DNA from: Closterium sp. NIES-65
Taxonomy: Eukaryota > Streptophyta > Zygnematophyceae > Desmidiales > Closteriaceae
Direction of reading: 5' to 3'
Length of the DNA: 64,000 nucleotides
Assembly (NCBI GenBank): GCA_948144175.1
Contig: CANXME010002517.1
Coordinates: forward strand, 1,240,001-1,304,000
Below are positions 29,201-54,201 of this stretch, piece by piece. A model generated the notes under the pieces. It did no database searches, was not told the origin of the DNA, and saw only the letters and a list, made by a program, of their open reading frames with translations. How positions within the stretch are numbered: the stretch's first letter is position 1; each line of letters starts with the position of its first letter. The translations under genes were made by a program, and so were the position numbers.

Positions 29201-29291
29201 AGCAGCAGCATTGGAAGTGTTGCAAGCTGGCTGGGATGGCTCTGAACTGAGAGAGCAACATATCCTAAGGCCAACAATCCGAGGGGAAGTT
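29201..29291 (+). other. Copia-3 pol end and polypurine tract preceding the left LTR
   Basis: Matches 34874-34964, i.e. the last codons of RNase H, the TGA stop and CCGAGGGGAAGT, which is the polypurine tract. Normal elements start at the LTR, so the left end carries extra upstream sequence. Confidence 0.85.
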
Positions 29292-30119: not shown

Positions 30120-30121
30120 AG

Positions 30122-30133
30122 TGGTATCAGAGC
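30122..30133 (+). other. Copia-3a primer-binding site (initiator Met tRNA)
   Basis: TGGTATCAGAGC two bases after the LTR end. Confidence 0.93.
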
Positions 30134-30153
30134 CCCTTGGAGCAGTTTCGACA

Positions 30154-33100: not shown

Positions 33101-34923
33101 CGAGTGCTCCACGGATTCGAGCCACACCGCAGCAACACCAAGGCCTTCAAGTCCCTGCAACTGAGGAGGAAGGAAGGGGGAAGAGGAGAGTTTAACCCCC
33201 TAATAGGCTGACCTTTGATGCGCCGGGAAAGCAGGGCAAGACGGCCCTGGCCGGAGCGGCAATGATGGTCGGAGACGACGAGGAGAGTGACAACGAGGAG
33301 TGTGCCTTCGCGCTCTTCTCTCCGGTGGAGATGTTGGGGGAACCAGCAACTCTCAAGGAGGCTTTGGAGAGTAGTGATGCTGAGGAGTGGAAGAAGGCCA
33401 TGGAGAGTGAGCTGAAGAGCATCGAGGAGAATGACACGTTTGAATTGGTGGAGCTACCGGAGGGGCGTAGGGCGATAACGTCCAAGTGGCTCTTCAAAAT
33501 CAAGTCGGATGCCGACGGCAAGATCGAGCGCTACAAGTCTAGGCTTGTAGCCAAGGGGTACCAACAGAAGGAGAAGGTGGACTTGAAGGAGCTGTTTGCC
33601 CCTGTGGTGAAGCCGACGACGCTGCGAACCCTATTCGCGGGAGCCGCCATCAAAGGATGGGTAGTAAAACAAATGGACATCGTAACGGCATTCCTTAACG
33701 GCATCCTTGAGGAGGAGATTTTTATGGCGCAGCCAGAGGGGTTTGATGATGGTAGTGGCAGAGTGTGGAAGCTAAAGAAGGCCCTCTATGGGCTGAAGTA
33801 GGCCCCTAGGCAATGGTACATGAAGCTGCGCGAAGTGTTGGAGGAGATCGGCTTCACTCCCTCAACGGCCGATCACTCCTTGTTCATGCTTGGCAAGGGG
33901 GAGCAGAGGAGCTTCATGGTGGTTTATGTGGATGACATTCTTATATTCTCACCCTCCTCTGACCTTGTGAAGGAGGTGATGCTGAAGCTGCATGACAAGT
34001 TCAAGTGCAAGTCCCTTGGTGACGTGAACTTCTACCTTGGGCTCCACATCGAACGAGACGTGGAGAAGCGGAGCATGCGAGTGCACCAACGGAAGTACCT
34101 GGAGGCGTTGGCTGCCAACTTTGGCCAGAGTGAAGGTCATGTGGCTACACCCTTTCCCTCTGGGTTCAAGTGTGTGAAGGGACCAGAGGAGGAGAGCGTT
34201 TGTGAAGAGGAGAGGCGCCGTTTTCACTCGTTGGTGGGCAGCCTCATGTATGCGGCGGTAAACACCCGAGCGGACGTTGCGTTTGCTACCGGGCAGCTGG
34301 CAAGGGTTGTGCAATGCCCTAATGAGGAGTAGGTAGCAGCTGGAATGAGGGTGGCCAAGTATCTTGGCCAAACACTGACCGTTGGGCTGCAATACTCGGC
34401 GGCGGCACAAAGGCGCCAAAAGGGCGCGGATGGTGTTGAACCCGGGCGTTTGTTCCTCACCGCCTACTCGGATGCTTCATATGCATCGGAACCAGATGAC
34501 ATGACAAGTGTGGGAGGCTTCATATGCTGTGTTGGTGGAGGCCCAACTGCTTGGGAGAGCAAGAAGCAGGTTGACCAAGCTTTGAGCTCGGTAGAGTCCG
34601 AGTACATGGCACTCTTCCGTGCCGTACGGGAGATTGTGTGGCAGCGGCGTTTGTTGGCTGAATTAGGGGAGGAGCAGCAAGGACCTACCCCACTCTACTG
34701 TGACAGCCAGGGTGCCATTGCTCTTGCTAAGAACCCTGTGTTGCATGGACTCACAAAGCACATGAGGGTGAAGTGGCATTGGACGAGGAGCATGGTGACC
34801 GCGGGTGAAGTTGAGTTGCTGTACGTGAAGACCACGGGGCAGCCGGCTGACATGATGACTAAGAGGCTGGTGGAGCAGCAGCATTGGAAGTGTTGCAAGC
34901 TGGCTGGGATGGCTCTGAACTGA
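30154..34923 (+). pseudogene. Copia-3a gag-pol, five nonsense codons
   Basis: A single frame from ATG 30154 (MAGPEERGGRG) to TGA at 34923. Gag (LDKFNGDNFAEWSFRMENIF), Arg/Gly-rich stretches, CCHC knuckle CHYCHKSGHMWRDC (about residue 292), protease YWVIDSGATYSMTP (about 398), pre-integrase LHRRMGHVALP and CPTCMQAKF, integrase DEVVMDVVGPL and RTDRGGEFLSKEF, RT VVYVDDILIF (near 33925) and RNase H. Stops at 32467 (TAC to TAA), 32809 (TGG to TGA), 33193 (CAA to TAA), 33799 (CAG to TAG) and 34330 interrupt it. The first three are shown by Copia-3b, which has the sense codons. No frameshifts were noticed. Confidence 0.92.
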
Positions 34924-34964
34924 GAGAGCAACATATCCTAAGGCCAACAATCCGAGGGGAAGTT

Positions 34965-35291
34965 TGTTGGTGCAACCCTACGGTTTGCACTCGGCTTGTT
35001 GTCCGTGTGCGTGCATGTGTGTGTGTATGGAATGGTATGAGGGCATGGGATAATATATATTTCATGCTTATAATTGTGTGTGAATGTTGAGTCATGATGT
35101 CGAGTGTGTGTGTCGAGTCAATAGCGAGTTATCGCTAGACGCGTGTTACGCGGTCGTTTGTGTCTCGCACGCGGTTTCTATTTTGTCGTGCGCGGTTTCT
35201 ATTTTGTCCTGTGTCGAACGTTCGGCGTGTCGCAGGTGTGTGTAGAAGACCCATCAAGAACTCAAGGATGAGTTTGTGATGAAGAGCCCGA
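34965..35291 (+). repeat. Copia-3 middle LTR, first part
   Basis: Begins TGTTGGTGCAACC after the polypurine tract, and is interrupted at 35292 by Copia-2b. It continues at 50215. Confidence 0.92.
35287..35291. repeat. Target-site duplication CCCGA, left of Copia-2b
   Basis: Repeated at 50210-50214. The uninterrupted LTR at about 29612 reads AGCCCGAGCC, with CCCGA once. Confidence 0.93.
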
Positions 35292-36416
35292 TGTCAACGG
35301 GAGTTGGGTATTGGCCTCGTCCTCGCTTGGGCGGAGCTGACTTCGTGGTCGGGTGTGAGGGGAGCAGCCGACCCGCAGCAGTGGGTGAGCTGGTCGACGA
35401 GGAGGTCGACCTGCACGGGGGACCACTGCACGGGCGCCGACTTCAGAGAGGTCGACTTGGGAGTCGACCTGCGGAGGACGTCAACTTGGTGACGTCAACT
35501 AGGGGAAGCCGACTTCGACGGTCAGCTAACGGACTGCTGGTCGACCTGTTAGCGGTCGACTGGACCTGGTGGTCGATGAAGGAGGGGCCGACGTCGACCT
35601 CGACTCAGGACGCCGAGCAGTTGGGCGTCGAGTAGCGGGGTGTCAACTTCGTGACGCCAGCTTCGGGTGGCCGACGTGGGTGGTCGGCCGAAGACTGTGC
35701 TGGTCGACGTGGAGCTGGTCGACCAGGGGGGACGTCGACCTCGAGGAGGTCGACTGATGGTGTCGTCGACCTGGTGAGGTCGACGTGGAGGTGGTCGTCG
35801 ACTTAGGAGGTCGACGGGCACATACGGGAGCTGCTGGTCGACGTGGTTGCCTGGTCGACCAGGTTACCTGGGTGACGAAGTGCTGCGGAGGAGTGCGACG
35901 GTCGCCCAGGCGAATTTGGCGAGCCCGACCTCGGTGGTGGTATCCCGAGGTCGTCATGGCGGATCAGAGGCAGTTGTCAGCTCGAGGTCGACGTGGTGTG
36001 TGCGTTGTGCAGGTGACGAGACTCTGCACGCCAATCATCTGCGTGCAATTGCGAAGCAGGGTGCACTGCTGTCCTGGCATGAGCAACGCTGTCGCGCCGT
36101 CAACCTGCGACGTTGGCACGCCGTCGCCCTTGCCTTGCTGGAGCGCGGTCAACCAAGTCGTGCTGGAACGCGGTCGACCAAGCTGCGCTGGCAGCTGGCC
36201 GACCTGAATGCTTGCTCTGATGTAGTCTTGCTATGCCAACTTCATTGTACCAATTGTTCAAAAACTTTTCCTAGTGGAACTCTTGCCAATTTTCCCCGTG
36301 AACTAGCAAGTAGTGTGCGCACAAGGAAAACGACTAAGGAACAGAGAACGCAGAGATCACACGAGCACACGTGCCTAGCCTGCAATCTAGCTCCCGTTGT
36401 AGTAGTTATCTCCGCA
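35292..36416 (+). repeat. Copia-2b left LTR (1125 bp)
   Basis: Begins TGTCAACGGGAG and ends TCTCCGCA. Compared by eye with 41826-42115 it differs at roughly a dozen positions plus a 15-bp indel. It is less diverged from 49289-50072. Confidence 0.92.
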
Positions 36417-36492
36417 TGGTGCGGTGAGCGTGGACGGCACACGACTTACCTTTCAGTCAGGTCGACGTAGACACCACTTACCTATTTCGTAG
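36417..36492 (+). other. Copia-2b leader with candidate primer-binding site
   Basis: TGGTGCGGTGAGCG (36417-36430) lies directly on the LTR end, as in 2a and 2c. The rest of the leader contains two ACTTACCT words and no ORF. Confidence 0.65.
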
Positions 36493-39400
36493 TTGCAGGC
36501 CCGCAACTGTGCGGTAGTCACTATGGTAGGAGCCGTAGGTGACACGGGGGTGGTGGACACCCTAGAGGCACGGTTGGAGAACGCGAGGAGGAAGCACGAG
36601 GCCAACGAGTATGGCGACTTGCCCTGGCCGGTCATCGAGGCTGCACTCCGCTCCATGTGGGCGACGGAGCACCCGTCTCGACCTGCCTCTCCTCGTCCAG
36701 TGAACAACGAAGGCGGCGTTGACGTGGGCGTCTACGCCGGTGGTGGTCAAGTCGGCATCAGTGCTGGAGGCACGTCGAGGCAACGAGGTATGATACATGC
36801 CGGTAAAGTCGGCGCCGTTCAGGCGCGAGGGATGCAGTCGTCGGCGGCTGCAGGCTCTTCGCAGGGTGACATCGGAGGTCGACAGAGTGGGCTGTCGCCG
36901 ATGTCGGCGTCCCAGGTGATGGCAGGTGGGATTGCGCCGAGCTACGGCTACTTCAAGTTCACGCCGGACAGGATCTCAGTCACCCCCCCACTGGTCGGTC
37001 GACCCGACATTCTCACCTGGAAAGAAGCTATCGAGCCCCAGCTGGAGATGGGCGGGCTGATCGGCTTCGCCCGAGGGACCGTGGCGACGCCGGGAGAGCA
37101 CCACCCCGACCTGCGTGCGGAGTTTCGCGCCGTGCAGCTGTTGACCTTCATGGTCATCTCGCGGTGCTGCTCGCCGGGCGTGCAGGTCGCCTTGAAGTGG
37201 TGCCGGGAGTACCTCGACGTCGGCCACAGGGCATGGCACTTCATTGAGTCGACGTACCAGGTCACCGACGACCTGTTCATCGCCCAGCTGGAGGGACAGC
37301 TGACACACCTGCGTATGGGCGACAAGGAGAGTGCGACCAACTACTGCAACCGAGCCAAGCAAATTCTCGCCACCATCAAGATGGCCGACGCGCAGTACTC
37401 TACGGCGTCGTACATCACCCATGTCATGCAGGGATTGTCTAGCAGCTATAACCTGCTGAAGCGGCTGTCTATGGCGCCGAGCACAAGGGCGACGCTCAAC
37501 GAGGACAACCTGACCTCGTACATCCTGCAGGACGAGGCGATGCAGGAGGCTGAGCGATCGCAGGAGCTCTTGGTGCAGGCCAACTTCGTCGCCCCGGCGA
37601 AGCAAGGAGGCCGACCAGGACAGCGCGGACAGTCTGGTGGCGGCGGGAGCGGTGGCTGGAAGTCGACCAAGGAGGTCGAGAAGAAGTCGACCAAGGACGG
37701 CGGTCGAGGAAGAGGAGGTCGACGTCGGGAGTGCTGGATCTGCCACAACCCCGATCACCTCTCCTTCGAGTGTCCCGACCGCACTGACTCCAACGACGAC
37801 GACAAGGGCGGCCGCGGGAGGTCTGGCAGTCATCGTCCTCGTCGTGGAGGAAATCATCCGCGCAAGGAGAAACAGTCGACCAAGGCATCGACTTCGGCGA
37901 AGGACGCCGACTCCGTTGCAGGCGGCAAGGGGCGAGACGACAAGATGGCGTCGTGCTCGCTGGTCGGCGTCGTGGAGCCGACCATCTCTCTGGCGCCGGA
38001 GGCCGGAGAGGACTTCCAGGCGGTGGCGGCAGCTGTGCAGGCGAATCCGGCGGTGGTCCTGCTCGACAGCGGTTGCTCCCACCACCTGATGGGAACGAAG
38101 GAAGCCTTCGTCGACTTGCAGCCGAGTGGCTCCATCAAGCACGTGCGCGGCTTCAATGGGGCGCTGCAGGACGTTCAGGGCCGTGGCACCGTCTCCCTGC
38201 AAGGAGAGGCCGGGAAGGAGGTGCTCATCCCCGACATGCTGTACGTCCCGGGTGTGCGGGCCAACCTGCTATCGGCCGGCCAACTGAAGGAGCACGGCGT
38301 GAAGCTGCAGGAGGACGGAGACGGCATGCTGCTCGTCTCAGCAGCGGGGGAGGCGCTCGGGCGGGCGACGTACTCTGGGCAAGTCCTCTGCACCAACCTG
38401 CGTCCCTGCGCGACGAGGTCGACGCCGCCCACGACGGAGGTCGTGGCTCTGCGGGCGATCGTCTCGAAGACGAAGTCGACGCCGGACCGGATGCATGCGA
38501 GGCTTGCGCATGTCGACGAGGACACCATACGGAGCTCGGCGAAGAATGAGGTCGCCATTGGGCTGGACCTCAAGTCGGCGACGGGCGCCGACTCCCCGTG
38601 TGTCTCGTGCGTCGGGGGGAAACTGGCGCGGCACACCTTCCCCGACCAAGGCTCGGACGCCGACGACGTACTGACCGTCGTGCACATCGATCTGTGCGGG
38701 CCGTTCCGCGTGACTGCCAAGGATGGTAGCCTGTACTTCTTGCTGCTGAAGGACCGCAAGACCCGCTACGTGTGGGTGAAGCCGGTCGCCAAGAAGTCAG
38801 ATGCGTTGCAGGCCTTCGTGCAGTGGCTGGCTGTGGCTGAGCGGCAGACGAAGAAGCCGGTGTTGATGCTGCGATCTGACCGAGGAGGGGAGTTCCTCGG
38901 GAAGCAGTTCACCGCCTTCGTGAACGGCAAGGGGATCGTCCACGACCTGACCTGCCCATCCACCCCGCAGCAAAACGGCATGGCGGAGCGGGAGATGAGG
39001 ACGGTGGTGGAGTCGGTGCGGACAATGCTGCTGCACATGGGTGTGCAGCACCACTGGTGGCACCTCGCTCTGCGGCAGGCCGTCTGGGTCCGCAACTGCC
39101 TTGAGAGGTCGACGCTGCCGCCGGGGACGACGCCGTACCAGCTGCTGACCGGGAAAAAGCCCGACTTGTCGCTGGCACGGGTGTGGGGCTGCATGGCGCA
39201 GTTCCTTGTCCCTGAGCAGCAGCGTGGTGGGAAGCTGAAGCCAAAGGCCAGGTGGGGCCTGCACCTTGGCGTGTCGGCGACGAGCAAGGGCTGGGAGCTC
39301 CTTGACGTCGCCACTGACCGAGTGGTCACCACGTCGGACGTGGTGTTCTACGAGGAAATGTCGCTGGCGGAGTGGAAGACGGAGCACAGGCCGGTGTCCG

Positions 39401-41697
39401 TCCGCTCGTCGTCCACCCCGCCCTCTGACATCTCGTCGGCGACACTGCCGCTACTTGCCGAGGTTGGTGAGCTTGCTACGGAGGACGTCGAGGACGTCCG
39501 CCCCCCTACCCCTCCCCCTCCAACCCCTGCCCCTCCCCTTGTGGCCAACCTGCGTGGGCTCACCTCGGTGTCGGCCTCCGGCGATGAGGGGAGTAGCGGG
39601 ACGTCGCCTTCGGCGCCGGCCAAGTGCATCGCCGGTGGCCAACGTGACGAGCGGCAGGTCGACATGGGTTTGCAGTCGGCGTCGACAGGGGAGAAGCGGG
39701 TCGAGGAGCAGCGGCCGACGAAGGAGCAGGCTGCCGTGAAGCCGACCACGGAGCTGTTGGCGACCGGGCCGTCGGCAGGGGAGCCGACCACAGGGGAGAA
39801 GTCGGCTGGGAAGCCGACCGCAGTGGAGCAGTCGGCTGGGACGCCGGCTGAGGAGCAGCACGGCGCCGAGGGCAGCGACGAGAGCGACGATGGAGGGGAT
39901 GCCGAGGAGGCCCAGCCGGGACCACGGCGTTCAGGCCGACTTCGGAGGCCGCCTGACTTCTTCGTCCCCGCTGCCTTCACCACGGTGTATGATGTGGACG
40001 ATGACGACGACCTGCTGTACGATGACGCCGAGGATGATGAGGAGTTTCCGGAGCTCGACCCCAACATGCTAGCCGACCCCGAGCACCGTTGGGACATCTC
40101 GACGATGACGGTGAAGGAGGCGTTGGCGAGCTGGAAGGGCCCGGCGGTGAAAGCCGCCATGGAGGAGGAGATTCGCAGCCTCATCAACATGGGCACTTGG
40201 GAGCTGGTTGAACGCCCGCCGGGGGTGAACGTCATGAAGAACCGGTGGGTGTTGACGACAAAGTACCACATCGACGACACCGTCGAGCGAGAGAAGGCGA
40301 GGCTGGTCGTGAAGGGCTTCACACAGGTGTACGGCGCCGACTACGACGAGACGTTCGCGCCGGTGAGCAGCTACGTCACGTTGAGGATCTTCCTCAGCAT
40401 CGTCGCTGTCCTCAACCTCAACCTGATGCAGCTCGACATGAAGAACGCCTTCCTGCAGAGCAAGCTCGATCGGGTGTTGTACATGTCCCAGCCGGACTAC
40501 TTCAACGATGGAACCGGCCGGGTGTGTAAGCTGCTGAAGAGCCTGTACGGGCTGAAGCAGTCGCCGCTGTTGTGGTACTTGGCACTCAACGATGTGCTGG
40601 TCGGCGGCGGGTGGAAGAAGAGCCAGGTCGACGAGGCTCTTTACTTCAAGATCGGCGAGGGTGGAGTGGCCTGCTGGGTTCTGGTCTATGTCGACGACCT
40701 GCTTGCCGCTAGCAGCAGCACCGTGATGCTGAAGGAGCTGAAGGAGCTGGTGGAAGCTGCCTTCGAGCTGCGCGAGATCTCGCCGGTGCAGAAGTACCTC
40801 GGGCTGGAGATCGTGCGCGACAGGTCGGCGAGGAAGCTGTGGCTGCACCAGCAGGGTTACGCCGACAAGCTGCGGAGGCGCTTCCTCGACGAGGAGGAGA
40901 CCGGGCGCACCCCGAAGACACCAGTCTCGGTCGATGCCTACGCCGAGCTCACCTTCAATGACGAGGAGGCGCAGGAACGGCAGGAGGAGGAGTACCGGCA
41001 GAAGGTCGGCTCGCTGCAGTTCGCGGCGACGACGACGAGGCCGGACATCGCCTTCGCCTGCTGCAAGCTGGGGAGCGGCCTCACGGTGAGGAGCGACCAG
41101 CACTGGCGCGAGGTCGACCGCTGCCTCGCCTACCTCGCCAACACACGTGACACTGCCCTGGAGTTCGGCGGTGGACCTGAGTCGCTGGAGCTGGTCGGCT
41201 ACGTGGACGCCGACGACGCCCGTGACAAGCAGAACAGGACGAACACGAGCGGCTACGTGTTCGTCTACAGAGGGGCTGCAGTCTCCTGGTCGAGCCAGCG
41301 CATTAAGTGCACGACGTTGTCATCGACAGAGTCGGAGTATGTGGCAGCCACTGAAGCTGGCAAGGAGGGACGCCGCCTTCGTTTCCTCCTCGTAGAATTC
41401 CGGCAACTGGACGCCGGAAAGCCGACTGTCCTGCGCGTGGACAATAAGTCGGCTATCACGGTCGCCGAGGGCATGGGGTTGACAGGCAACCTCAAGCACA
41501 TGGAGCGGCGACAGGCCTGGCTGCAGCACATGGTGAAGCGCGGGAAGTTCTCGCTGCAGTACATCCCAACCGCTGAGCAGCCGGCCGACTTCCTGACGAA
41601 GGCGCTGCACTATCCGGCCTTCAACCGGTGCTCCGTCGCAATCGGCCAAGTGCGCCTGGCAGACGTGGGCGACGGCGACAACGATGTGCAGCAGTAG
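36493..41697 (+). CDS. Copia-2b gag-pol polyprotein, full-length and uninterrupted
   Basis: An open frame of 1734 codons in Ty1/copia order. Gag occupies about residues 1-480, with FTPDRISVTPPLVGRPDIL and a CCHC knuckle CWICHNPDHLSFEC (about 414-427). The protease motif LLDSGCSHHLMG is near 524. Integrase has HIDLCGPFRV (about 731), RSDRGGEF (about 793) and PQQNGMAERE (about 825). An acidic, Pro-rich linker covers about 1000-1200. RT has ENRWV-like KNRWVLTTKY (about 1250), LDMKNAFLQ and LVYVDDLLA (about 1398). RNase H has YVDADDA, SSTESEYVAATEAG (about 1610) and ADFLTKAL (about 1698). The second Met, ten codons in, matches the Copia-2c start. It encodes everything needed for capsid formation, reverse transcription and integration; activity is unproven. 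Confidence 0.95.
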   Translation: MQARNCAVVTMVGAVGDTGVVDTLEARLENARRKHEANEYGDLPWPVIEAALRSMWATEHPSRPASPRPVNNEGGVDVGVYAGGGQVGISAGGTSRQRGMIHAGKVGAVQARGMQSSAAAGSSQGDIGGRQSGLSPMSASQVMAGGIAPSYGYFKFTPDRISVTPPLVGRPDILTWKEAIEPQLEMGGLIGFARGTVATPGEHHPDLRAEFRAVQLLTFMVISRCCSPGVQVALKWCREYLDVGHRAWHFIESTYQVTDDLFIAQLEGQLTHLRMGDKESATNYCNRAKQILATIKMADAQYSTASYITHVMQGLSSSYNLLKRLSMAPSTRATLNEDNLTSYILQDEAMQEAERSQELLVQANFVAPAKQGGRPGQRGQSGGGGSGGWKSTKEVEKKSTKDGGRGRGGRRRECWICHNPDHLSFECPDRTDSNDDDKGGRGRSGSHRPRRGGNHPRKEKQSTKASTSAKDADSVAGGKGRDDKMASCSLVGVVEPTISLAPEAGEDFQAVAAAVQANPAVVLLDSGCSHHLMGTKEAFVDLQPSGSIKHVRGFNGALQDVQGRGTVSLQGEAGKEVLIPDMLYVPGVRANLLSAGQLKEHGVKLQEDGDGMLLVSAAGEALGRATYSGQVLCTNLRPCATRSTPPTTEVVALRAIVSKTKSTPDRMHARLAHVDEDTIRSSAKNEVAIGLDLKSATGADSPCVSCVGGKLARHTFPDQGSDADDVLTVVHIDLCGPFRVTAKDGSLYFLLLKDRKTRYVWVKPVAKKSDALQAFVQWLAVAERQTKKPVLMLRSDRGGEFLGKQFTAFVNGKGIVHDLTCPSTPQQNGMAEREMRTVVESVRTMLLHMGVQHHWWHLALRQAVWVRNCLERSTLPPGTTPYQLLTGKKPDLSLARVWGCMAQFLVPEQQRGGKLKPKARWGLHLGVSATSKGWELLDVATDRVVTTSDVVFYEEMSLAEWKTEHRPVSVRSSSTPPSDISSATLPLLAEVGELATEDVEDVRPPTPPPPTPAPPLVANLRGLTSVSASGDEGSSGTSPSAPAKCIAGGQRDERQVDMGLQSASTGEKRVEEQRPTKEQAAVKPTTELLATGPSAGEPTTGEKSAGKPTAVEQSAGTPAEEQHGAEGSDESDDGGDAEEAQPGPRRSGRLRRPPDFFVPAAFTTVYDVDDDDDLLYDDAEDDEEFPELDPNMLADPEHRWDISTMTVKEALASWKGPAVKAAMEEEIRSLINMGTWELVERPPGVNVMKNRWVLTTKYHIDDTVEREKARLVVKGFTQVYGADYDETFAPVSSYVTLRIFLSIVAVLNLNLMQLDMKNAFLQSKLDRVLYMSQPDYFNDGTGRVCKLLKSLYGLKQSPLLWYLALNDVLVGGGWKKSQVDEALYFKIGEGGVACWVLVYVDDLLAASSSTVMLKELKELVEAAFELREISPVQKYLGLEIVRDRSARKLWLHQQGYADKLRRRFLDEEETGRTPKTPVSVDAYAELTFNDEEAQERQEEEYRQKVGSLQFAATTTRPDIAFACCKLGSGLTVRSDQHWREVDRCLAYLANTRDTALEFGGGPESLELVGYVDADDARDKQNRTNTSGYVFVYRGAAVSWSSQRIKCTTLSSTESEYVAATEAGKEGRRLRFLLVEFRQLDAGKPTVLRVDNKSAITVAEGMGLTGNLKHMERRQAWLQHMVKRGKFSLQYIPTAEQPADFLTKALHYPAFNRCSVAIGQVRLADVGDGDNDVQQ

Positions 41698-41825
41698 GTG
41701 CCATGCCCTTTTGCATGGCTGGTGCGGTGACCGGCGTGCTGTGTGTTGGACGCACGCCGACGGGCTATTCTTGGAGCTGTAGTGCCTTGAGGACTGGGGG
41801 CCCAAGCGTGAATGCGGCAGGGGAG
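41698..41825 (+). other. Copia-2b 3' UTR and polypurine tract
   Basis: Short non-coding stretch ending GCGGCAGGGGAG (41814-41825) against the LTR. Confidence 0.8.
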
Positions 41826-42115
41826 TGTCAACGGGAGTTGGGTATTGGCCCCATCCTCGCTTGGGTGGAGCTGACTTCGTGGTCGGGTGTGGGGGGAGCA
41901 GCCGACCCGCAGCAGTGGGTGTGCTGGACGACAAGGAGGTCGACCTGCACGGGGGACCACTGCACGGGCGCCGACTTCAGAGAGGTCGACTTGGGAGTCG
42001 ACCTGCGGAGGACGTCAACTTGGGGAAGCCGACTTCGACGGTCGGCTAACGGACTCCTGGTCAACCTGTTAGCGGTCGACTGGACCTGGTGGTCGACGAA
42101 GGAGGGGCCGACGTC
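41826..42115 (+). repeat. Copia-2b right LTR, first 290 bp
   Basis: Begins TGTCAACGGGAG and stops at ...GGGGCCGACGTC, where Copia-2c begins. The last five bases ACGTC are the presumed target duplication of 2c. Confidence 0.9.
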
Positions 42116-43250
42116 TGCGGAGATAACTACAGCAACGGGAGCTAGGTTACGGACTAGGCACGTGTGCTCGTGTGATCTCTGCGTTCTTTGTCCCTTAGTC
42201 GTTTTCCTTGTGCTCACACTACTTGCTAGTTCACGGGGAAAATTGGCAAGAGTTTCACTAGGAAAAGTTCAGAACAGTGGTGCAATGAAGTTGGCATAGC
42301 AAGACTACATCAGAGCAAGCATTCAGGTCGGCCAACTGCCAGCGCAGCTTGGTCGACCGCGTTCCAGCACGACTTCGTCGACCGCGTTCCAGCAAGGCAA
42401 GGTCGACGGCGTGCCAACGTCGCAGGTTGACGGCGTGACAGCGTTGCTTATGCAGGACAGCAGTGCACCCTGCTTCGCAGTTGTGCGCAGTTGATTGGCG
42501 CGCAGAGTCTTGTCACCTGCACAGCGCACACACCACGTCAACCTCGAGCTAACTGCTGCCTCTGATCCGCCACGACGACCTCGGGATACCACCACCGAGG
42601 TCGGGCTTGCCAACTTCGCCTGGGCGACCGTCGCACTCCTCCGCAGCACTTCGTCACCCAGGTAACCTGGTCGACCAGCAGCTCCCGTACGTGCCCGTCG
42701 ACCTCCCAAGTCGACGAACACCTCCACGTCGACCTCACCAGGTCGACGACACCATCGGTCGACCTCCTCCAGGTCGACATCCCCTCTGGTCGACCAGCTC
42801 CACGCCGACCAGCACTCCTGGTCGACCTGCTCCTCGTCGACCAGCACAGTCGTCGGCCGACCACACGTCGGCCACCCGTAGCTGGCGTCACGAAGTTGAC
42901 GCCCTGCTACTCGACGCCTAACTGCTCGGCGTCCTGAGTCGAGGTCAACGTCGGCCCCTCCTTCGTCGACCACCAGGTCTAGTCGACCACTAGCAGGTCA
43001 ACCAGCAGTCCGTTAGCTGACTGCCGAAGTCGGCTTCCCCAAGTTGACGTCACCAAGTTGACGTCCTCCGCAAGTCGACACCCAAGTCGCCCTCCCTGAA
43101 GTCGGCGCTCGTGCAGTGGTCCCCCGTGCAAGTCGACCTCCTTGTCGACCAGCTCACCCACTGCCAGAGGTCGGCTGCTCCCCTCACACCCGACCACGAG
43201 GTCGGCTCCGCCCAAGCGAGGACGTGGCCAATACACAACTCCCGTTGACA
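42116..43250 (-). repeat. Copia-2c 3' LTR (1135 bp)
   Basis: Plus strand begins TGCGGAGATAAC and ends CCCGTTGACA. The polypurine tract lies at 43251-43262. Confidence 0.9.
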
Positions 43251-43380
43251 CTCCCCTGCCGCGTTCACGCTTGGGCCCCCTAGTCCTACTAGGCAGTACT
43301 CCTCAGAGAATAGCTCGTCGATGTGCACCCAACACACAGCACGTCGTCCACCGCACCAGCCATGCAAAAGGGCATGGCAC

Positions 43381-46300
43381 CTACTGCTGCACGTCGTTGT
43401 CGCCGTCGCCCACGTCGGCCAAGCGCACTTGGCCGATTGCAACGGAACACCGGTTGAAGGCCAGATAGTGCAGCGCCTTCGTCAGGAAGTCGGCCGGCTG
43501 CTCAGCTGTCGGGATGTACTCCAGCGAGAACTTCCCGCGCTTCACCATGTGCTGCAGCCAGGCCTGTCGCCGTTCCATGTGCTTGAGGTTGCCCGTCAAC
43601 CCCATGCCCTCGGCGACCGTGATGGCCGACTTGTTGTCCACGCGCAGGACAGTCGGCTTCCCGGCGTCCATTTGCCGGAATTCTGCGAGGAGGAAGCGAA
43701 GGCGGCGTCCCTCCTTGCCAGCTTCAGTGGCCGCCACGTACTCCGACTCGGTCGACGACAGTGTCGCGCACTTGATGCGCTGGCTCGACCAGGAGACTGC
43801 AGCCCCTCCGTAGACAAACACGTAGCCACTCGTGCTCGTCCTGTTCTGCTTGTCACCGGCGTCGTCGGCGTCCACGTAGCCGACCAGCTCCAGCGACTCA
43901 GGTCCACCGCCGAACTCCAGGGCGGTGTTGCGTGTGTTGGCGAGGTAGGCGAGACAGCGATCGACCTCACGCCAGTGCTGATCGCTCCTCACCGTGAGGC
44001 CGCTCCCCAGCTTGCTGCAAGCGAAGGCGACGTCCGGCCTCGTCGTCGTCGCCGCGAACTGCAGCGAGCCGACCTTCTGCCGGTACTCCTCCTCCTGCCG
44101 TTCCTGCACCTCCTCGTCATCGAAGGTGAGCTCTGCGTAGGCACCGACCGAGACCGGTGTCTTCGGGGTGCGCCCGGTCTGCTCCTCGTCCAGGAAGCGC
44201 CTACGCAGCTTGTCGGCGTAGCCCTGCTGGTGCAGCCACAGCTTCCCCACCGATCTCTCGCGCACGATCTCCAGCCCGAGGTACTTCTGCACCGGCAAGA
44301 TCTCGCGCAGCTCAAAGGCGGCTTCTAGCAGCTCCTTCAGCTTCTTCAGCATCGCGGCGCTGCTGCTGGCGGCAAGCAGGTCGTCGACGTAGACCAGCAC
44401 CCAGCAAGCCACTCCATCCTCGCCGACCTTGAAGTAAAGAGCCTCGTCGACCTGGCTCTTCTTCCACCCGGCGCCGACCAGCACATCGTTGAGTGCCAAG
44501 TACCACAACAGCGGCGACTGCTTCAGCCCGTACAGGCTCTTCAGCAGCTTACACACCCGGCCGGTTCCGTCGTTGAAGTAGTCCGGCTGAGACATGTACA
44601 GCACCCGGTCAAGCTTGCTCTGCAGGAAGGTGTTCTTCATGTCGAGCTGCATCAGGTTAAGGTTGAGGACGGCGACGATGCTGAGGAAGATCCTCAGCGT
44701 GACATAGCTGCTCACCGGCGCGAACGTATCGTCGTAGTCGGCGCCATACACCTGTGTGAAGCCCTTCACGACCAGCCTTGCCTTCTCTCGCTTGACGGTG
44801 TCGTCGATGTGGTACTTCGTCGTCAACACCCACCGGTTCTTCATGACGTTCACCCCCGGCGGGCGGTCGACCAGCTCCCAAGTGCCCATGTTGATGAGGC
44901 TCCGAATCTCCTCCTCCATGGCGGCCTTCACCGCCGGGCCCTTCCAGCTCGCCAGCGCCTCCTTCACCGTCATCGTCGAGATGTCCCAACGATGCTCGGG
45001 GTCAGCTAGCATGTCAGGGTCGAGCTCCGGAAACTCCTCATCCTCCTCGGCGTCGTCGTATAGCAGGTCGTCTTCATCGTCCACGTCATACACCGCGGTG
45101 AAGGCAGCGGGGACGAAGAAGTCAGGCGGCCTCCGAAGTCGGCCTGAACGTCGCGGTCCTTGCTGAACCTCCTCGGCGTCCTGCTGCTCCTCAGCCGGCG
45201 TCCCAGCCGACTGCTCCACTGTGGTCGGCTTCCCAGCCGACTTCTCCCCTGTGGTCGGCTCCCCTGCCGACGTCCCGGTCGCCGACTGCTCCGTGGTCGG
45301 CTTCACGACAGCCTGCTCCCTTGTCGGCTGCTGCTCCCCGACCTGCTCCTCCCCTGTCGACTCCAATCCCACGTCGATGCGCCGTTCGTCAAGTCGGTCG
45401 CCGGCGATGCACTTGGCCGGTGCCGAAGGCGGCGTCCCACTACTCCCTTCATCGCCGGAGGCCAACACCGAGGTCAGCCCACGCAGGTCGGCCACGAGGG
45501 GAGGGGCAGGGGTCAGAGGGTGAGGCGTAGGGGTATGGACGTTCTCGACGTCCTCAACAGTAAGCTTTCCGACCTCGGCAAGCACCGGCAGCGTCGCCGA
45601 CGAGGTGTCAGAGAGCGGCAAGCGGCCGGACACCGGCCCATGCTCCGTCTTCCACTCGGCCAGCGACAGCTCCTCGTAGAACACCACGTCCGACGTGGTG
45701 ACCATCCGGTCAGAGGTGACGTCAAGGAGCTCCCAGCCCTTGCTCGCCTCTGACACACCAAGGTGTAGGCCCCACTTGGCCTTCGGCTACAGCTTCCCAC
45801 CACGCTGTTGCTCAGGGACAAGGAACTGCGCCATGCAGCCCCATACTCGTGCCAGCGACAAGTCGGGCTTCTTCCCGGTCAGCAGCTGGTATGGCGTCGT
45901 CCCCGGTGGCAGCGTCGACCTCTCAAGACAGTTGCGGACCCAGACGGCCTGTCGCAGAGCGAGGTGCCACAAGTGGTGCTGCACACCCATGTGCAGCAGC
46001 ATTGTTCGCACCGACTCCACCACCGTCCTCATCTCCCGCTCCGCCATGCCGTTCTGTTGCGGGGTGTATGGGCAGGTCAGGTCGTGGACGATCCCCTTGC
46101 CGTTCACGAAGTCGGTGAACTGCTTCCCAAGGAACTCCCCTCCCCGGTCAGAGCGCAGCATCAACACCGACTTCTTCGTCTGCCGCTCAGCCACCGCCAG
46201 CCACTGTTCGAACGCCTGCAACGCATCTGACTTCTTGGCGACCGGCTTCACCCACACGTAGCGGGTCTTGCGGTCCTTCATCAGCAAGAAGTACAGGCCG

Positions 46301-48355
46301 CCGTCCTTGGCAGCCACGCGAAACGGCCCGCACAGATCGATGTGCACGATAGCGAGCACGTCGTCGGCATCGGAGCCATGGTCGGGGAAGGTGTGTCGCG
46401 CCAGTTTCCCGCCGACGCACGAGACACACGGAGAGTCGGCGTCCGTCGCCGTCTTGAGGTCCAGCCCAATGGCGACCTCGTTCTTCGCCGAGCTCCGTAT
46501 GGTGTCCATGCCGACGTGCGCAAGCCTCGCATGCATCCGGTCCGGCGTCGACTTCGTCTTCGAGACGATCGTCCGCAGAGCCACCACCTCCGTCGTGGGC
46601 GGCGTCGACCTCGTCGCGCAGGGACGCAGGTTGGTGCAGAGGACTCGTCCAGAGTACGTCGCCCGCCCGAGCACCTCCCCTGCTGCCGAGACGAGCAACA
46701 TGCCGTCTCCGTCCTCCTGCAGCTTCACGCCATGCTCCTTCAGCTGGCCGGCCGACAGTAGGTTGGCTCGCACACCCGGCACGTACAACACGTCGGGGAT
46801 GAGCACCTCCTTCCCGGCCTCTCCTTGCAGGGCGATGGTGCCGCAGCCCTGGACATCCTGCAGCGCCCCATTGAAGCCGCGCACATGCCGGATGACACCG
46901 CTCGGCTGCAAGTCGACGAAGGCTTTCTTCGTCCCCATCAGTGGTGGGAGCAACCGCTGTCGAGCAGGACCACCGCCGGGTTCGCCTGCACAGCCGCCGC
47001 CACCGCCTGAAAGTCCTCTCCGGCCTCCGACGCCAGAGAGATGGTCGGCTCCACGACGCCGACCAGCGAGCACGACGCTGTCTTGTCGTCTCGCCCCTTG
47101 CCGCCTGCAACGGAGTCGGCGTCCTTCGCCGAAGTCGATATCTTGGTCGACTGCTTCTCCTTGCGCGGTTGGTTGCCTCCACGACGAGGACGACGGCTGC
47201 CAGACCTCCCATGGCCTCCCTTAGCATTGTCGTCGTCGGAGTCGCTGCGGTTGGGACACTCGAAGGAGAGATGATCGGGATCGCCGCACAGCCAGCACTC
47301 CCGACCTCGACCAAGTTCGCCTGCGCCAAGAGCTCCTGCGACCGCTCAGCCTCCTGCATCGCCTCATCCTGCAGGATATACGAGGTCAGGTTGTCCTCGT
47401 TGAGCGTCGCCCTCGTGCTCGGCGCCATGGACAGCCATTTCAGCAGGTTGTAGCTGCTAGAGAGACCCTGCATGACATGGGTGATATACGACGCCGTGGA
47501 GTACTGCGCTCCGGCCATCCTAATGGTTGTGAGAATTCGTCTGGCTCGGTTGCAGTAGTCGGTCGCACTCTCCTCGTCACCCATACGCAGGTGCGTCAGT
47601 TGTCCCTCCAGCTGGGCGATGAACAGGTCGTCGGTGAAGTGCCACACCCGGTGGCCAGCGTCGATGTATTCCCGGCACCACTTCAACGCGATCTGCACGC
47701 CCGGCGAGCAGCACCGCGAGATGACCGTGAAGGTCAACAGCTGCACGGCGCGAAACTCCACACGCAGGTCGGGGTGGTGCTCCCCCGGCGTCGCCACGGT
47801 CCCTCGGGCGAAGCCGATCAGCCCGGCCATCTCCAGCTGGAGCTCGATGGCTTCCTTCCAATTGAGAATGTCGGGTCGACCGACCAGCGGAGGGGTAACC
47901 GAGATCCTGTCCGGCGTAAACTTGAAGTAGCCGTAGCTCGGCGCAATTCCGCCCGCCGTCACCTGGGTCGCCGACATCGGCGACAGTCCACTTCGACGCC
48001 CACCAGCGTCGCCATGCGAGGAGCCTGCAGCCGCCGAAGACTGCATCCCTCGCGTCTGAACGCCGCCGACTTCACCGGCGTGTATCACACCTCTTTGCCT
48101 CGACGTGCCTCCAGCACTGCTGCCGACTTGACCGCCACCGGCGTTGACGCCCACGTCGACGCCGCCTTCGTTGTTCACAGGACGAGGAGAGGCGGGTCGA
48201 GACGGGTGCTCCGTCGCCCACGTTGAGCGGAGTCCAGCCTCGACGACCGTCCAGGGCAAGTCGCCATACTCGTTGGCCTCATGCTTCCTCCTCGCGTTCT
48301 CCAACCGTGCCTCCAGGGTGTCCACCACCCCCGCGTCACCTACGGCTCCTACCAT
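43381..48355 (-). pseudogene. Copia-2c gag-pol, broken
   Basis: Starts MVGAVGDAGVVDTLEARLEN at 48355. Gag has a 24-bp deletion near 47636 and a deletion of roughly 130 bp near 47308 that removes the basic stretch before the zinc knuckle (knuckle near 47290 reads CWLCGDPDHLSFEC). A one-base loss near 46938 in the protease region (CCCATCAGTGG where 2a has CCCATCAGGTGG) shifts the frame. Integrase reads on from about 47070 to 45790, where CTA is a TAG codon in place of the CAG/AAG of the other copies. The frame then continues from 45756 to 43381 through RT (LVYVDDLLA) and RNase H to the normal stop. Confidence 0.9.
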
Positions 48356-48444
48356 AGTGACTACTGCACAGTTGCCGGCCTGTAACTACGCAATAGGTAA
48401 GTGGTGTCTACGTCGACCTGACTGAAAGGTAAGTCGTGTGCCGT

Positions 48445-48461
48445 CCACGCTCACCGCACCA
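48445..48461 (-). other. Copia-2c candidate primer-binding site
   Basis: The minus strand reads TGGTGCGGTGAGCGTGG against the LTR, identical to the sites of 2a and 2b. Confidence 0.6.
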
Positions 48462-49288
48462 TGCGGAGATAACTACAGCAACGAGAGCTAGGTTACGGAC
48501 TAGGCACGTGTGCTCGTGTGATCTCTGCGTTCTTTGTCCCTTGGTCGTTTTCCTTGTGCTCACACTACTTGCTAGTTCACGGGGAAAATTGGCAAGAGTT
48601 TCACTAGGAAAAGTTCAGAACAATGGTGCAATGAAGTTGGCATAGCAAGACTACATCAGAGCAAGCATTCAGGTCGGCCAACTGCCAGCGCAGCTTGGTC
48701 GACCGCGTTCCAGCACGACTTCGTCGACCGCGTTCCAGCAAGGCAAGGTCGACGGCGTGCCAACGTCGCAGGTTGACGGCGTGACAGCGTTGCTTATGCA
48801 GGACAGCAGTGCACCCTGCTTCGCAGTTGTGCGCAGTTGATTGGCGCGCAGAGTCTTGTCACCTGCACAGCGCACACACCATGCAACCTCGAGCTAATTG
48901 CTGCCTCTGATCCGCCACGACGACCTCGGGATACCACCACCGAGGTCGGGCTTGCAAACTTCGCCTGGGCGACCGTCGCACTCCTCCGCAGCAATTCGTC
49001 ACCCAGGTAACCTGGTCGACCAGCAGCTCCCGTACGTGCCCGTCGACCTCCCAAGTCGACGAACACCTCCACGTCGACCTCACCAGGTCGACGACACCAT
49101 CGGTCGACCTCCTCCAGGTCGACATCCCCTCTGGTCGACCAGCTCCACGTCGACCAGCACTCCTGGTCGACCTGCTCCTCGTCGACCAGCACAGTCGTCG
49201 GCCGACCACACGTCGGCCACCCGTAGCTGGCGTCACGAAGTTGACGCCCCGCTACTCGACGCCCAACTGCTCGGCGTCCTGAGTCGAG
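48462..49288 (-). repeat. Copia-2c 5' LTR, truncated (827 bp)
   Basis: Matches 42116-42943 of the left LTR and ends at CCTGAGTCGAG. The remaining LTR sequence is absent. Confidence 0.88.
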
Positions 49289-50072
49289 TAGCGGGGCGTC
49301 ACCTTCGTGATGCCAGCTTCGGGTGGCCGACGTGGGTGGTCGGCCGAAGACTGTGCTGGTCGACGTGGAGCTGGTCGACCAGAGGGGACGTCGACCTCGA
49401 GGAGGTCGACCGATGGTGTCGTCGACCTGGTGAGGTCGACGTGGAGGTGGTCGTCGACTTGGGAGGTCGACGGGCACGTACGGGAGCTGCTGGTCGACGT
49501 GGTTGCCTGGTCGACCAGGTTACCTGGGTGACGAAGTGCTGCGGAGGAGTGCGACGGTCGCCCAGGCGAAGTTGGCGAGCCCGACCTCGGTGGTGGTATC
49601 CCGAGGTCGTCATGGCGGATCAGAGGCAGTTGTCAGCTCGAGGTCGACGTGGTGTGTGCGCTGTGCAGGTGACGAGACTCTGCACGCCAATCATCTGCGT
49701 GCAACTGTGAAGCAGGGTGCACTGCTGTCCTGGCATGAGCAACGCTGTCGCGCCGTCAACCTGCGACGTTGGCACGCCGTCGCCCTTGCCTTGCTGGAGC
49801 GCGGTCAACCAAGTCGTGCTGGAACGCGGTCGACCAAGCTGCGCTGGCAGTTGGCCGACCTGAATGCTTGCTCTGATGTAGTCTTGCTATGCCAACTTCA
49901 TTGTACCAATTGTTCAAAAACTTTTCCGAGTGGAACTCTTGCCAACTTTCCCCGTGAACTAGCAAGTAGTGTGCGCACAAGGAAAACGACTAAGGAACAA
50001 AGAACGCAGAGATCACACGAGCACACGTGCCTAGCCTGCAATCTAGCTCCCGTTGTAGTAGTTATCTCCGCA
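49289..50072 (+). repeat. Copia-2b right LTR, last 784 bp
   Basis: Aligns base for base with 35633-36416 and shares its private bases (for example GTGCGCACAAGG and CTGCAATCTAGC) rather than those of Copia-2c. It therefore belongs to 2b. Confidence 0.85.
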
Positions 50073-50163
50073 TGGTGCGGTGAGCGTGGACGGCACACGA
50101 CTTACCTTTCAGTCAGGTCGACGTAGACACCACTTACCTATTTTGTAGTTGCAGGCCGGCAAC
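50073..50163 (+). other. Second Copia-2 primer site and leader, after the right LTR
   Basis: TGGTGCGGTGAGCG and 77 following bases match the 2b leader at 36417-36507. They lie downstream of a complete LTR end, where flanking DNA would be expected. Confidence 0.88.
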
Positions 50164-50209
50164 GTGCCTAGCCTGCAGTCTAGCTCCCGTTGTAGTAGAT
50201 ATCTCCGCA
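50164..50209 (+). repeat. 46-bp LTR tail ending Copia-2b
   Basis: GTGCCTAGCCTGCAGTC to TCTCCGCA matches only the last 46 bp of the LTR. It ends at the CCCGA duplication (50210-50214). Confidence 0.9.
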
Positions 50210-50214
50210 CCCGA
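50210..50214. repeat. Target-site duplication CCCGA, right of Copia-2b
   Basis: Matches 35287-35291. Confidence 0.93.
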
Positions 50215-50714
50215 GCCTTGGTGTCAAGCCTCAAGTGATTTCGAAGCTCGCCAAAAGGGTGCACCTCAAGATGTTGAAGATAGTTACATTACTTTGTGTA
50301 GTGTAACATTTCACTTGGTGTAGGCCCTAGTGAAGAGTAGTTTCGAGACCCTTCGTGGTTGGGGACAGTGTGGCACTGTTCCACATCACTGTACCTTGGC
50401 TCTTGGGGTTTGTAGGAGCTGGGAGTCATTCCCAACTCGTAACTCTTCCTAACTCTTCCTATCTTGTGTTCAAGACTATGTTGCTGCCATAGTGCTGTTC
50501 GTTCAAACCAACGCTGTGTCACAAATACTTGGTCAAATCGTGCGATCTAAATTGCCTAGTGTAGGCAACAATAATACGCTCCAAATCCAAGTTGAATCAA
50601 GGCATTTGATGTTGTGACCAGAACGCTATGAACGTTTGAAGCCGCTATGCAGAAATCCGACTGTGCACTCTATCTTTCGTTTTAGGCACATTGGAGCCTA
50701 CTGTGACTATATCA
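50215..50714 (+). repeat. Copia-3 middle LTR, second part
   Basis: Resumes GCCTTGGTGTCAAGCC and ends GACTATATCA (GACTATAACA in the left LTR). With 34965-35291 it makes 827 bp. Confidence 0.9.
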
Positions 50715-50716
50715 AG

Positions 50717-50728
50717 TAGTATCAGAGC
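50717..50728 (+). other. Copia-3b primer-binding site, mutated
   Basis: TAGTATCAGAGC, one substitution from the initiator-Met site at 30122. Confidence 0.85.
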
Positions 50729-50748
50729 CCCTTGGAGCAGTTTCGACA

Positions 50749-53700
50749 ATGGCTGGACCTGAGGAAAGGGGTGGCAGAGGTGCTGGTGGCAGAGGAGAAG
50801 CCCAAGCTCAAGGCCAACCCCGTGATTCAGCCATGGCGCCTGTGCAACCAAGTGTTGGCCCATCTAGGGATGAGCCTAGAGTGTTTGGCCTTGACAAGTT
50901 CAATGGTGACAACTTTGCTGAGTGGTCCTTCAGAATGGAGAACATATTTGACCACTATGACCTGCTGGAGGTAATGGAAGGAACGGAGAAGCGTCCCGAG
51001 AACGACCCGGAGAAGAGCCCGTGGGTGCGGAAGAGCGCACAAGGCTACCTCCTACTTGGGCAAGCGTTGGGGAGCAGCCAAATCCGTCACATCAAGCCTT
51101 TCCAGCGTGAACCAGAGAAGGGACCAAAGGCATGGGCTGCTCTCAAGGGTGTACACGCTCCTACAACAGCGGCAGTAGCTGTGGTGTTGGAACGGCAAAT
51201 GGCGACACTACGAATTGAAGAGGATGAAGCGGTTGAAGAAGGGGTGCAGAAATTCTTCGACTTGTTGACGCGGCTTGAGGGAGCTGATTTGAACTATAGT
51301 GAGCTCCAAAAGAAGACCAAGTTGCTGGCCCTACTCCCTGAGTCATGGTCCTCGCTCATCATCAACCTTAATCGCGACTTGCCCCGCCTCTCGCTTGAAG
51401 ACGTGAAGCGAGCTATCCTTCAAGAGGATTTCCGCCGCCGTGAGTTGGCGAGTGCGGATGGCGCTGGGGCAGCGAGCATCGGCCGTGGATATGGTCGAGG
51501 AAGAGGTAGAGGACGAGGGGGAGGAAGGTTTGGTGGCAGCAACTCCGGCGGAGGCCGCGGGAGTGGTGGTTACAGCAGCGACGACAAGAGCTACGGACGC
51601 GGCCGCGGCCGATTCGACGGCGAGTGTCACTATTGCCACAAGAGCGGACACATGTGGCGCGAATGCTACAAACTCCCAGATGGTTGGACCCCTGCTCAAG
51701 GCCAAGAGGGTAGAGGAGCAGGAGGAGGGAGAGGAAGAGGCCGTGGAGGCCGTGGCGGTCGCGGTGGCGGAGCTGCAAACATGAAGAGCGGAGACAACGA
51801 CAAGGACCCGAGCAACGATCGGTACCCGGGTCTATTCTACTTCGTGTCGACACAAGTACCGACTGGTCCAGAGAAGGATGAAGGCTTTGAGGAGCCAGAA
51901 TCTGTGGGGAAGGTGACTCTACACCCTCTGGACTATTGGGTGATCGATAGTGGCGCTACCTATAGCATGACACCTCGCTCACCGAACTCGAACCGTCACC
52001 GGTGAAGCATGTCACATCAGCTTTGGGGCAGCGAGCGGAGGTGAAAGGCATGGGCAAGGCCATGTTTAAGGGTGCTGATGGGAAGATGGTGGGCCTCAAG
52101 AATGTGCTTTGGGCGCCCAGCCTTGCTGCCAACCTGATTTCCGTGCGGCGGTTGGCAAAGGCCGGCATGGACACGAACTCAAAGAGAGTCAAGACCTACA
52201 CCGCAAGGCTTGGCGATCGGATTCTTTGGGACCTTCATGAGGACAGAGATGTCTACAACGAGATGTGGCAGATCCGTGTGGTCCCAATGCCTAAGGAGAG
52301 GCAAGTGGCAGCAAGCGTCAGCACCAAAGGTGGAGCGGTTGGTAGCGGCGATTGCGCGGACGGTCGGGCTAAGGAGGAGTCCAAGAAGTGCAATCTTGGA
52401 GGGACCAGCAAGCTTGGTGAACCTATGGAGAGAGGTGCAGCAGCCAAGGAGCAGCAAAAGGGTGAGGAGAACCCCGAGGCAGCAGCGGAGGAGGACTACG
52501 GAGAGAGTATGTGGGGCGCTATTGCGAGCGCGGCATTCTCCAATCCAACTTCGGCTACGGGGGAGTGTGATTGGCTCACCTTGCATCGGCGCATGGGGCA
52601 TGTGGCCCTGCCCATCTTGCAGCAGCTAGTAAAGAATGAGATGGTTGCTGGCATACGTGTGAAGGGGGAGCCCGATGAGGTACTTGGCTGCCCGACGTGC
52701 ATGCAAGCCAAGTTCACCCGTTTCCCATTCTCTAGTTCGGAGGCAACGGCTAAGGCACCACTTGATGAGGTGGTGATGGACGTGGTGGGCCCCCTGAAGC
52801 TTGGAGCTGCTGGAGCTGAGTACTTCCTCACTATTGTGGACGTCTACACCCGTATGACTTGGGTGTACGTGCTGGCCAAGAAGAGCGACGTGGCTGAAAC
52901 GTTGAAGGCGGATTGGTTCCCGATGGTGGAGCGGCAACAAGACCGTCTAGTCAAGTCAATCCGCACCGATCGAGGGGGAGAGTTCCTGAGCAAGGAGTTT
53001 GGGTTGTGGCTGAAGAAGAATGGTATTCGGCACTCCCTCACCATGCCATACTCCCCTGCAATGAACGGCATCGCCGAGCGAGCGAACCGCACAATCACGG
53101 AGGCGGCACGCGGGTTGCTCATTGAAGCCGGGCTACCCGACTATTTCTGGCCTTATGCGGTGCGGAGCGCGTGTGTGGCCAAGAACCGAGCCTTGACTCA
53201 TGTGGGAGCAGACAAATGGGTGCCCTATGTGGAGTGGCTAGGAAGGAAGCCAAAGGTGGATATGCTTCGGGTGTTCGGGTGCATGTGCATGGCGCTCGTG
53301 CCTAAGCATCTTCGGCACAACAAGCTTGGTGCCAAGGCGGTGTGGGCCGTGCACTTGGGCATGGCTCAAAACAGCAAGGGATGGCTTCTTTGGGACCCAT
53401 TCACCAAGAAGTTCTTGGTGAGCAGGGACTGCAAGTTCATGGAGAACTTCATGTACAAAGATTGGAAGGCGGAGAATGAGGCAAAGATAGGCGTGCGGTT
53501 TGGGGAGGTGAAGAGTTCCGGCTTGGAGCATGTGGAGCTGCCTTTGGAGCTGAGCAGCGGCAGCACAACCAGGAGGCAATCCTCCCTTGTGAATGGGGGA
53601 GAGGAGGCCAATGATGCAGAGGAAGAAGAGGAGGAGGTGCAGCAAGTGAGCGAGCGTGCACCGACACTCCCTTCCCGTACTACGAGTGCTCCACGGATTC

Positions 53701-54201
53701 GAGCCACACCGCAGCAACGCCAAGGCCTTCAAGTCCCTGCAGCTGAGGAGGAAGGAAGGGGGAAGAGGAGAGTTCAACCCCCTAATAGGCTGACCTATGA
53801 TGCGATGGGAAAGCAGGGCAAGACAGCCCTGGCCGGAGCGGCAATGATGGTCGGAGACGACGAGGAGAGTGACTACGAGGAGTGTGCCTTCGCGTTCTTC
53901 TTTCTAGTGGAGATGCCAGGAGAACCAGCAACTCTCAAGGAGGCATTGGAGAGTAGTGATGCTGAGGAGTGGAAGAAGGCCATGGAGAGTGAGCTGAAGA
54001 GCATCGAGGAGAATGACACGTTTGAATTGGTGGAGCTACCGGAGGGGCGTAGGGCGATAACGTCCAAGTGGCTCTTCAAAATCAAGTCGGATGCCGACGG
54101 CAAGATCGAGCGCTACAAGTCTAGGCTTGTAGCCAAGGGGTACCAGCAGAAGGAGAAGGTGGACTTGAAGGAGCTGTTTGCCCCTGTGGTGAAGCCGACA
54201 A
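50749..54201 (+). pseudogene. Copia-3b gag-pol, frameshifted and truncated within RT
   Basis: Starts at ATG 50749 (MAGPEERGGRGAGG) and is very similar to 3a. Gag, CHYCHKSGHMWREC and the protease start YWVIDSGATYSMTP read to about 51978. A 10-bp loss there (present in 3a as CGCCCGGACTTGCTC) shifts the frame. The second frame from about 51979 reads through integrase (DEVVMDVVGPL, RTDRGGEF, YSPAMNGIAERANRT) into the RT opening (KWLFKIKSDADGKIERYKSR, FAPVVKPTT). It is open where 3a has three stops. At about 54201 RT ends abruptly in LTR tail sequence. The RT core and RNase H are absent. Confidence 0.9.

Follow-up and report, generated by a model that had tools for sequence, protein, structure and literature searches.

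Three-LTR copia complexes of Angela, bounded by one 5-bp duplication, were ascribed to a jump between two co-packaged RNAs during reverse transcription in the available text of Sabot and Schulman 2007 (PMC1950507). Plants commonly carry tandem LTR elements bounded by a single duplication, according to the accessible part of a further report (PMC11899658), and Cassandra arrays are described, in text likewise available in part, as repeated LTR-internal units (PMC7215508). Furthermore, co-packaged Onsen RNAs recombine pairwise during reverse transcription in Arabidopsis, as stated in the accessible portion of PMC5668417. In paper titles and abstract openings, where the subscription literature is thinly covered, no description of a short leader/U5 module at one end of an element was found, and novelty is unproven.

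Here we analyzed the right end of an LTR element in a window of 64,000 nucleotides (the whole stretch of DNA studied) from Closterium sp. NIES-65. The structure observed is one insertion unit with one 5-bp duplication, and its right terminus is a U5 end which follows a full LTR, a primer site and a leader.

Results

The whole element, named Copia-2b in a preliminary description of this DNA, occupies 35292-50209 on the plus strand and lies flush with a CCCGA duplication on both sides, the left copy being read from the sequence at 35287-35291 and the right copy at 50210-50214. All parts of the element described here lie on the plus strand. The left LTR (35292-36416; 1125 bp, TG..CA) is directly followed on its 3' side by the primer site TGGTGCGGTGAGC and then by the leader, and this normal primer site and leader (36417-36507) are the counterpart of the odd leader at the right end. 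An open frame extends from stop to stop over 36493-41697. A profile search of this frame, done in four pieces, unveiled copia-type gag, integrase and RVT_2 matches in the order Retrotran_gag_2, gag_pre-integrs, rve and RVT_2, with the matches to gag_pre-integrs and rve falling below the Pfam curated cut-off. Judged from this sequence, with a copia-type gag and the integrase upstream of an RVT_2-type reverse transcriptase, the element is assigned to Ty1/copia; furthermore, it has TG..CA LTRs, a primer site adjoining the left LTR and a 5-bp duplication, as is usual for this group. No tRNA genes were found in the window. Apart from the right end the biology of the element is ordinary.

Beyond what the preliminary description had noticed, the right LTR was found to be split by a nested relative, B, which lies on the minus strand at about 42116-49282 (or up to 49288). 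The body of the right LTR therefore consists of a first part at 41826-42115 and a remainder at 49283-50072, the latter with a complete 3' end. Left and right LTR differ at 26 of 1,080 positions. The nested element lacks about 307 bp at the start of its own 5' LTR, the host LTR is short of about 31 bp on that same side, and B is missing from a further copy of the locus on contig C1900.

The right LTR terminates with ..TATCTCCGCA at 50072. It is followed by an extra primer site and leader of 91 bp (50073-50163), of which 89 bases match the normal counterpart at 36417-36507, and then by the last 46 bp of an LTR (50164-50209), i.e. a U5 end, which forms the integrated right end and matches the end of the left LTR and that of the right LTR at 44 of 46 positions each. 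At the crossover between leader and LTR tail (junction 50158-50173) only 2 bp, AC, are common to both parents. This direct reading bears out the preliminary description, which had listed the LTR up to 50072, the 91 bp of primer site and leader, the 46-bp tail and CCCGA in this order.

For comparison, the sequence into which the element inserted is available without the insertion. The flanking DNA is itself a copia-like element, tandemly repeated beyond its own LTR (29201-33617, and 34874-35291 together with 50210-54199) at a distance of 5,673 bp between units. The assembly contains further paired copies of this flanking element at the same spacing. The copy at 29201-33617 carries a single CCCGA at 29614-29618, and the downstream flank follows directly after it. 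With one CCCGA in the empty site, the extra 137 bp must lie inside the insertion, and the earlier claim that a single duplication brackets the odd end held. The refuting alternative named there, an independent solo insertion of the 46-bp tail with its own duplication, was thereby ruled out. Evidently, the further claim that the CCCGA bracket by itself indicates an origin before integration was too strong, since a trimmed tandem dimer would also keep CCCGA on both sides.

Such a dimer, arranged as LTR-internal-LTR-internal-LTR, could arise by unequal crossing over or already as cDNA. A later deletion of about 6 kb would then have removed everything between leader position 91 of its second unit and a point 46 bp short of the end of its third LTR, with the target duplication intact. 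Arrangements of the type LTR-internal-LTR-internal with two primer sites in one orientation do occur in the same family (L034 on C1617 and L035 on C1965), the flanking element (29201-33617 versus 34874-35291 plus 50210-54199) is tandemly repeated as well, the 2 bp common to both parents at the junction fit illegitimate recombination, and published tandem LTR elements have single duplications as far as the available text of PMC11899658 goes. With respect to the differences between templates described below we nevertheless consider this origin, the strongest of the alternatives, unlikely.

Compared with the leader and LTR of the same element, the odd piece shows 4 differences in 137 positions. 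This resembles the divergence between the two LTRs (26 of 1,080) and indicates a similar age for the odd end and the insertion. The odd leader has one private base, the T in TTTTG, which is absent from the other family rows listed. In the left leader, the C in GGCCC was considered as a marker of two source RNAs and was dropped, since C1900 carries G there and the C is thus a later mutation. At 36490-36512 the leader contains a short hairpin, GUUGC-AGGCCC/AGGCCG-GCAAC with a GGCC loop, which ends exactly at the position of the window junction. This hairpin is given as a remark only, as RNA folding of the leader unveiled no structure beyond that of shuffled sequences (z from -0.70 to 0.19, longer pieces).

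The window locus was found on three contigs. Over 9,657 aligned positions C2383 differs from the window by 10 mismatches and 76 positions in gaps, and it ends inside the element, before the odd end. C1900 has the same left flank and duplication (98.5% identity over 3,189 bases), and its right end is deleted, the deletion starting 4 bp before the LTR terminus; its right LTR stops 4 bp short, at L036 3169-3175, and runs into another repeat. The odd end is thus held by one contig only. In this repeat-dense region, in which the near-identical duplicate contig C2383 breaks off inside the element, a misjoining of repeat copies at 50163/50164 or 50072/50073 during assembly might be suspected. Against this, both ends are flush with the 5-bp duplication as verified by the empty site, the odd leader has its own base (the T in TTTTG), and a mirror case is present on a separate contig, C1709. 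An assembly artefact is consequently very improbable.

In order to judge how rare the arrangement is, the assembly (874 Mb, 2,400 contigs) was searched. The 16-mer across the junction, a search proposed in the preliminary description, occurs once in the window, with 0 expected in 100 shuffles, and once in the whole 874-Mb assembly, namely at the window locus. A query of 258 bases across the odd end gave the full arrangement at the window locus only, among the 40 candidates scored out of 2,421. For comparison, LTR end and primer site adjoin at 1,699 places, counted as exact matches to the 20 bases across this junction. Scans from primer site to LTR end returned the window element for gaps of 71-131 bp and one place, on C1709, for gaps of 131-191 bp, and no match for gaps of 11-71, 191-251 and 251-311 bp; with exact anchors and a range of 11-311 bp these counts are lower bounds. 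Hence the suggested search for other LTR-leader-LTR-tail ends yielded one further case, in which the module is at the left end. A CpG-tolerant scan of the 71-131 bp range returned the window element and one low-complexity match; it adds little, as its backward control gave 6 matches.

Several candidates were discarded. A scan of the 191-251 bp range with too short a word for the LTR end gave 73 matches, and in 30 of 30 loci inspected the word stood in a gag context; rescanning this range with a longer word gave 0 matches. A further one of the 73, at C2000:214844 (L077), has a primer site and some 50 bp of leader, after which other sequence and no LTR tail follows, so that this is a broken element of a different kind. 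The candidate LTR-partial-LTR end on C1617 turned out to be a solo LTR that sits inside another LTR and is bounded by a CCGAC repeat of its own; L034 contains it in addition to its tandem arrangement.

The element on C1709 (L033, 1118-9039) carries the module at its left end and is a mirror image of the window element. A full left LTR (L033 1118-2288) is followed by the primer site with 79 bp of leader (L033 2289-2367) and by an LTR tail of about 109 bp, which ends at L033 2478 and is succeeded by primer site, leader and gag as usual; the right LTR (L033 7868-9039) is normal. The duplication AGACT flanks both sides. The extra sequence amounts to 190 bp, versus 137 bp in the window element. In both cases the polarity is the same: leader, at position 79 or 91 from the start of the primer site, is joined to U5 at a point that precedes the primer site by about 109 or 46 bp. 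The break points thus lie near the primer site twice, which speaks against random trimming of a dimer only in part, as this closeness is partly imposed by the 11-311 bp scan.

The outer LTRs on C1709 differ at 15 of 1,171 positions and by one gap, and the inner tail differs from them at 8/109 and 7/109 positions. At 7 sites both outer LTRs agree against the tail. From the divergence of the outer LTRs about 1.5 such differences would be expected, and P(>=7) is 0.0009. Among the 64 further LTR ends in the comparison, 14 (several of which come from one locus) share the type of the tail at these seven sites, and none has the exact outer type. The inner tail is hence of another subtype than the outer LTRs, and two templates must have contributed. 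A dimer of one element would not give this result, whereas a heterodimer would.

At the boundary of leader and tail on C1709 two bases, GA, match neither parent as sampled. These unmatched bases, together with the AC common to both sides at the window junction, would also fit an end joining before integration, in which a partial plus strand ending in the leader is joined via microhomology to a short U5-ended cDNA; this would correspond to alternative end joining of extrachromosomal cDNA, which is reported in second-strand transfer of LTR elements in the available part of PMC12786077. This route requires a free short U5-ended double strand, and nothing in the sequence prefers it over a jump of the polymerase, as both share the polarity from leader to U5. 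We regard end joining as improbable.

A second indication of two templates comes from the tail in the window, where a single one of the 46 sites is informative. At this U5 position (site 15, counted over the terminal 46 bp) A is present in both LTRs on the window contig and on C1900 and in the left LTR on C2383. The odd tail has G there, which is also the base in 57 of the 60 rows of close family members, or in 33 of 36 when each distinct row is counted once; two of the remaining three rows have A and one has T. Sampled loci other than that of the window element gave no further A row, so that the two A rows must be among the four rows which elements E1 and B of the window contribute; of these two elements, the nested element B is the one with this type. 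As one RNA has one U5, the differing tail (G versus A) points to a second template. Crossing over within one element would predict A at site 15 in the third LTR of a dimer, contrary to the G observed. It is these template differences, here and on C1709, that argue against a dimer formed by crossing over of one element.

The other difference of the odd tail is A at site 36. Copies L072 and L073 combine this base with G15, but it recurs in diverged copies too and is weak evidence. It may be a private mutation. A donor search using this variant gave five other places, 2, 5, 10, 10 and 16 of 46 positions off, and no identical donor.

Discussion

With respect to these results, we read the odd end, with a probability of roughly 0.6, as an aberrant product of reverse transcription, in which the growing strand jumped between U5 and leader of two co-packaged RNAs, and which was integrated as it stood. 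In its favor are the single duplication round the whole together with the paralogous empty site, the G/A difference at U5 site 15 and the mirror case on C1709. On the other side, chance reversion or LTR gene conversion could mimic the difference at site 15, an extra step is required to keep the left end normal, tandem dimers exist in the same family (L034, L035) and favor the dimer a priori, and the odd end is held by a single contig.

According to the proposed jump, a virus-like particle would hold two related RNAs. Minus-strand DNA primed by the tRNA would copy 46 nt of U5 of RNA 1, jump to leader position 91 of RNA 2, copy this second RNA from its leader back to primer site, U5 and R, and then finish as usual. 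The plus-strand strong-stop DNA would consequently consist of U3-R-U5-primer site-leader-U5 tail-(primer site). At the 3' end of the minus strand, the internal primer site of this DNA plus the 91-nt leader could form a longer duplex than could its terminal primer site by itself, and such pairing via the internal site would give a normal left LTR and an extension on the right only. Integrase would then join the ordinary U5 terminus ..CCGCA to the target. A jump between two RNAs before integration had already been the preferred idea of the preliminary description, and it is supported mainly by C1709 and the G/A site in U5; what that model omitted was the step that leaves the left end normal, though both LTRs normally come from the same strong-stop DNA.

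In analogy, the element on C1709 would result from the same jump between U5 and leader made later, when the minus strand had already passed the primer site of the second RNA and entered its U5. A jump within the first 46 nt after priming would accordingly lead to an extension of the right end as in the window, and a jump at the end of the round to one of the left end as on C1709, with integrase meeting an ordinary U5 terminus in either case. Tentatively, both cases may reflect a recurrent and specific failure of copia reverse transcription, namely a jump of the nascent strand that links U5, at 46-109 nt from the primer site, with the distal leader of the partner RNA (position 79-91). Its timing, before or after the main minus-strand round, would decide which end, right or left, keeps the short module of primer site, leader and U5, and both products would be acceptable to integrase.

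If this is true, a short leader/U5 module at the end of an element is the fossil of one error of reverse transcription. Such modules would record the presence of two RNAs in one particle, the strand-transfer step that failed and the ends that integrase accepts, and they could be counted in any assembly by a similar pattern. Furthermore, they would mislead programs for LTR dating and boundary calling.

Among the known systems, Onsen resembles the mechanism proposed here in that copia reverse transcription mixes two RNAs of one family, as far as the available text of PMC5668417 goes; the switches described there are homologous and leave the structure unchanged, whereas the switch in the window would be between non-homologous sites. 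The tandem LTR structures of plants (PMC11899658; Cassandra, PMC7215508) comprise, in the accessible parts of these reports, full-length repeated LTR-internal units within single duplications, in contrast to the 137-bp remnant in the window element. The complexes in the available text of Sabot and Schulman (PMC1950507) share with the window element and that on C1709 the copia type and the extra LTR sequence inside a single target duplication. In these complexes, as given there, the outer LTRs are alike and the inner LTR stems from another template, and both features recur on C1709 (outer LTRs differ at 15/1,171, inner tail of another subtype); in the window element the outermost right piece measures 46 bp and is 2 sites off the left LTR, one of them diagnostic. 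As described in that text, the complexes contain three full LTRs and two internal regions, and the jump takes place between R regions. In contrast, the window element and that on C1709 repeat only 91 and 79 bp of leader with 46 and about 109 bp of LTR end, and the break falls between U5 and leader. The window element further differs in having the extra piece at its right terminus. Measured against the available account of these complexes, the window element is a reduced relative of the known template-switching complexes.
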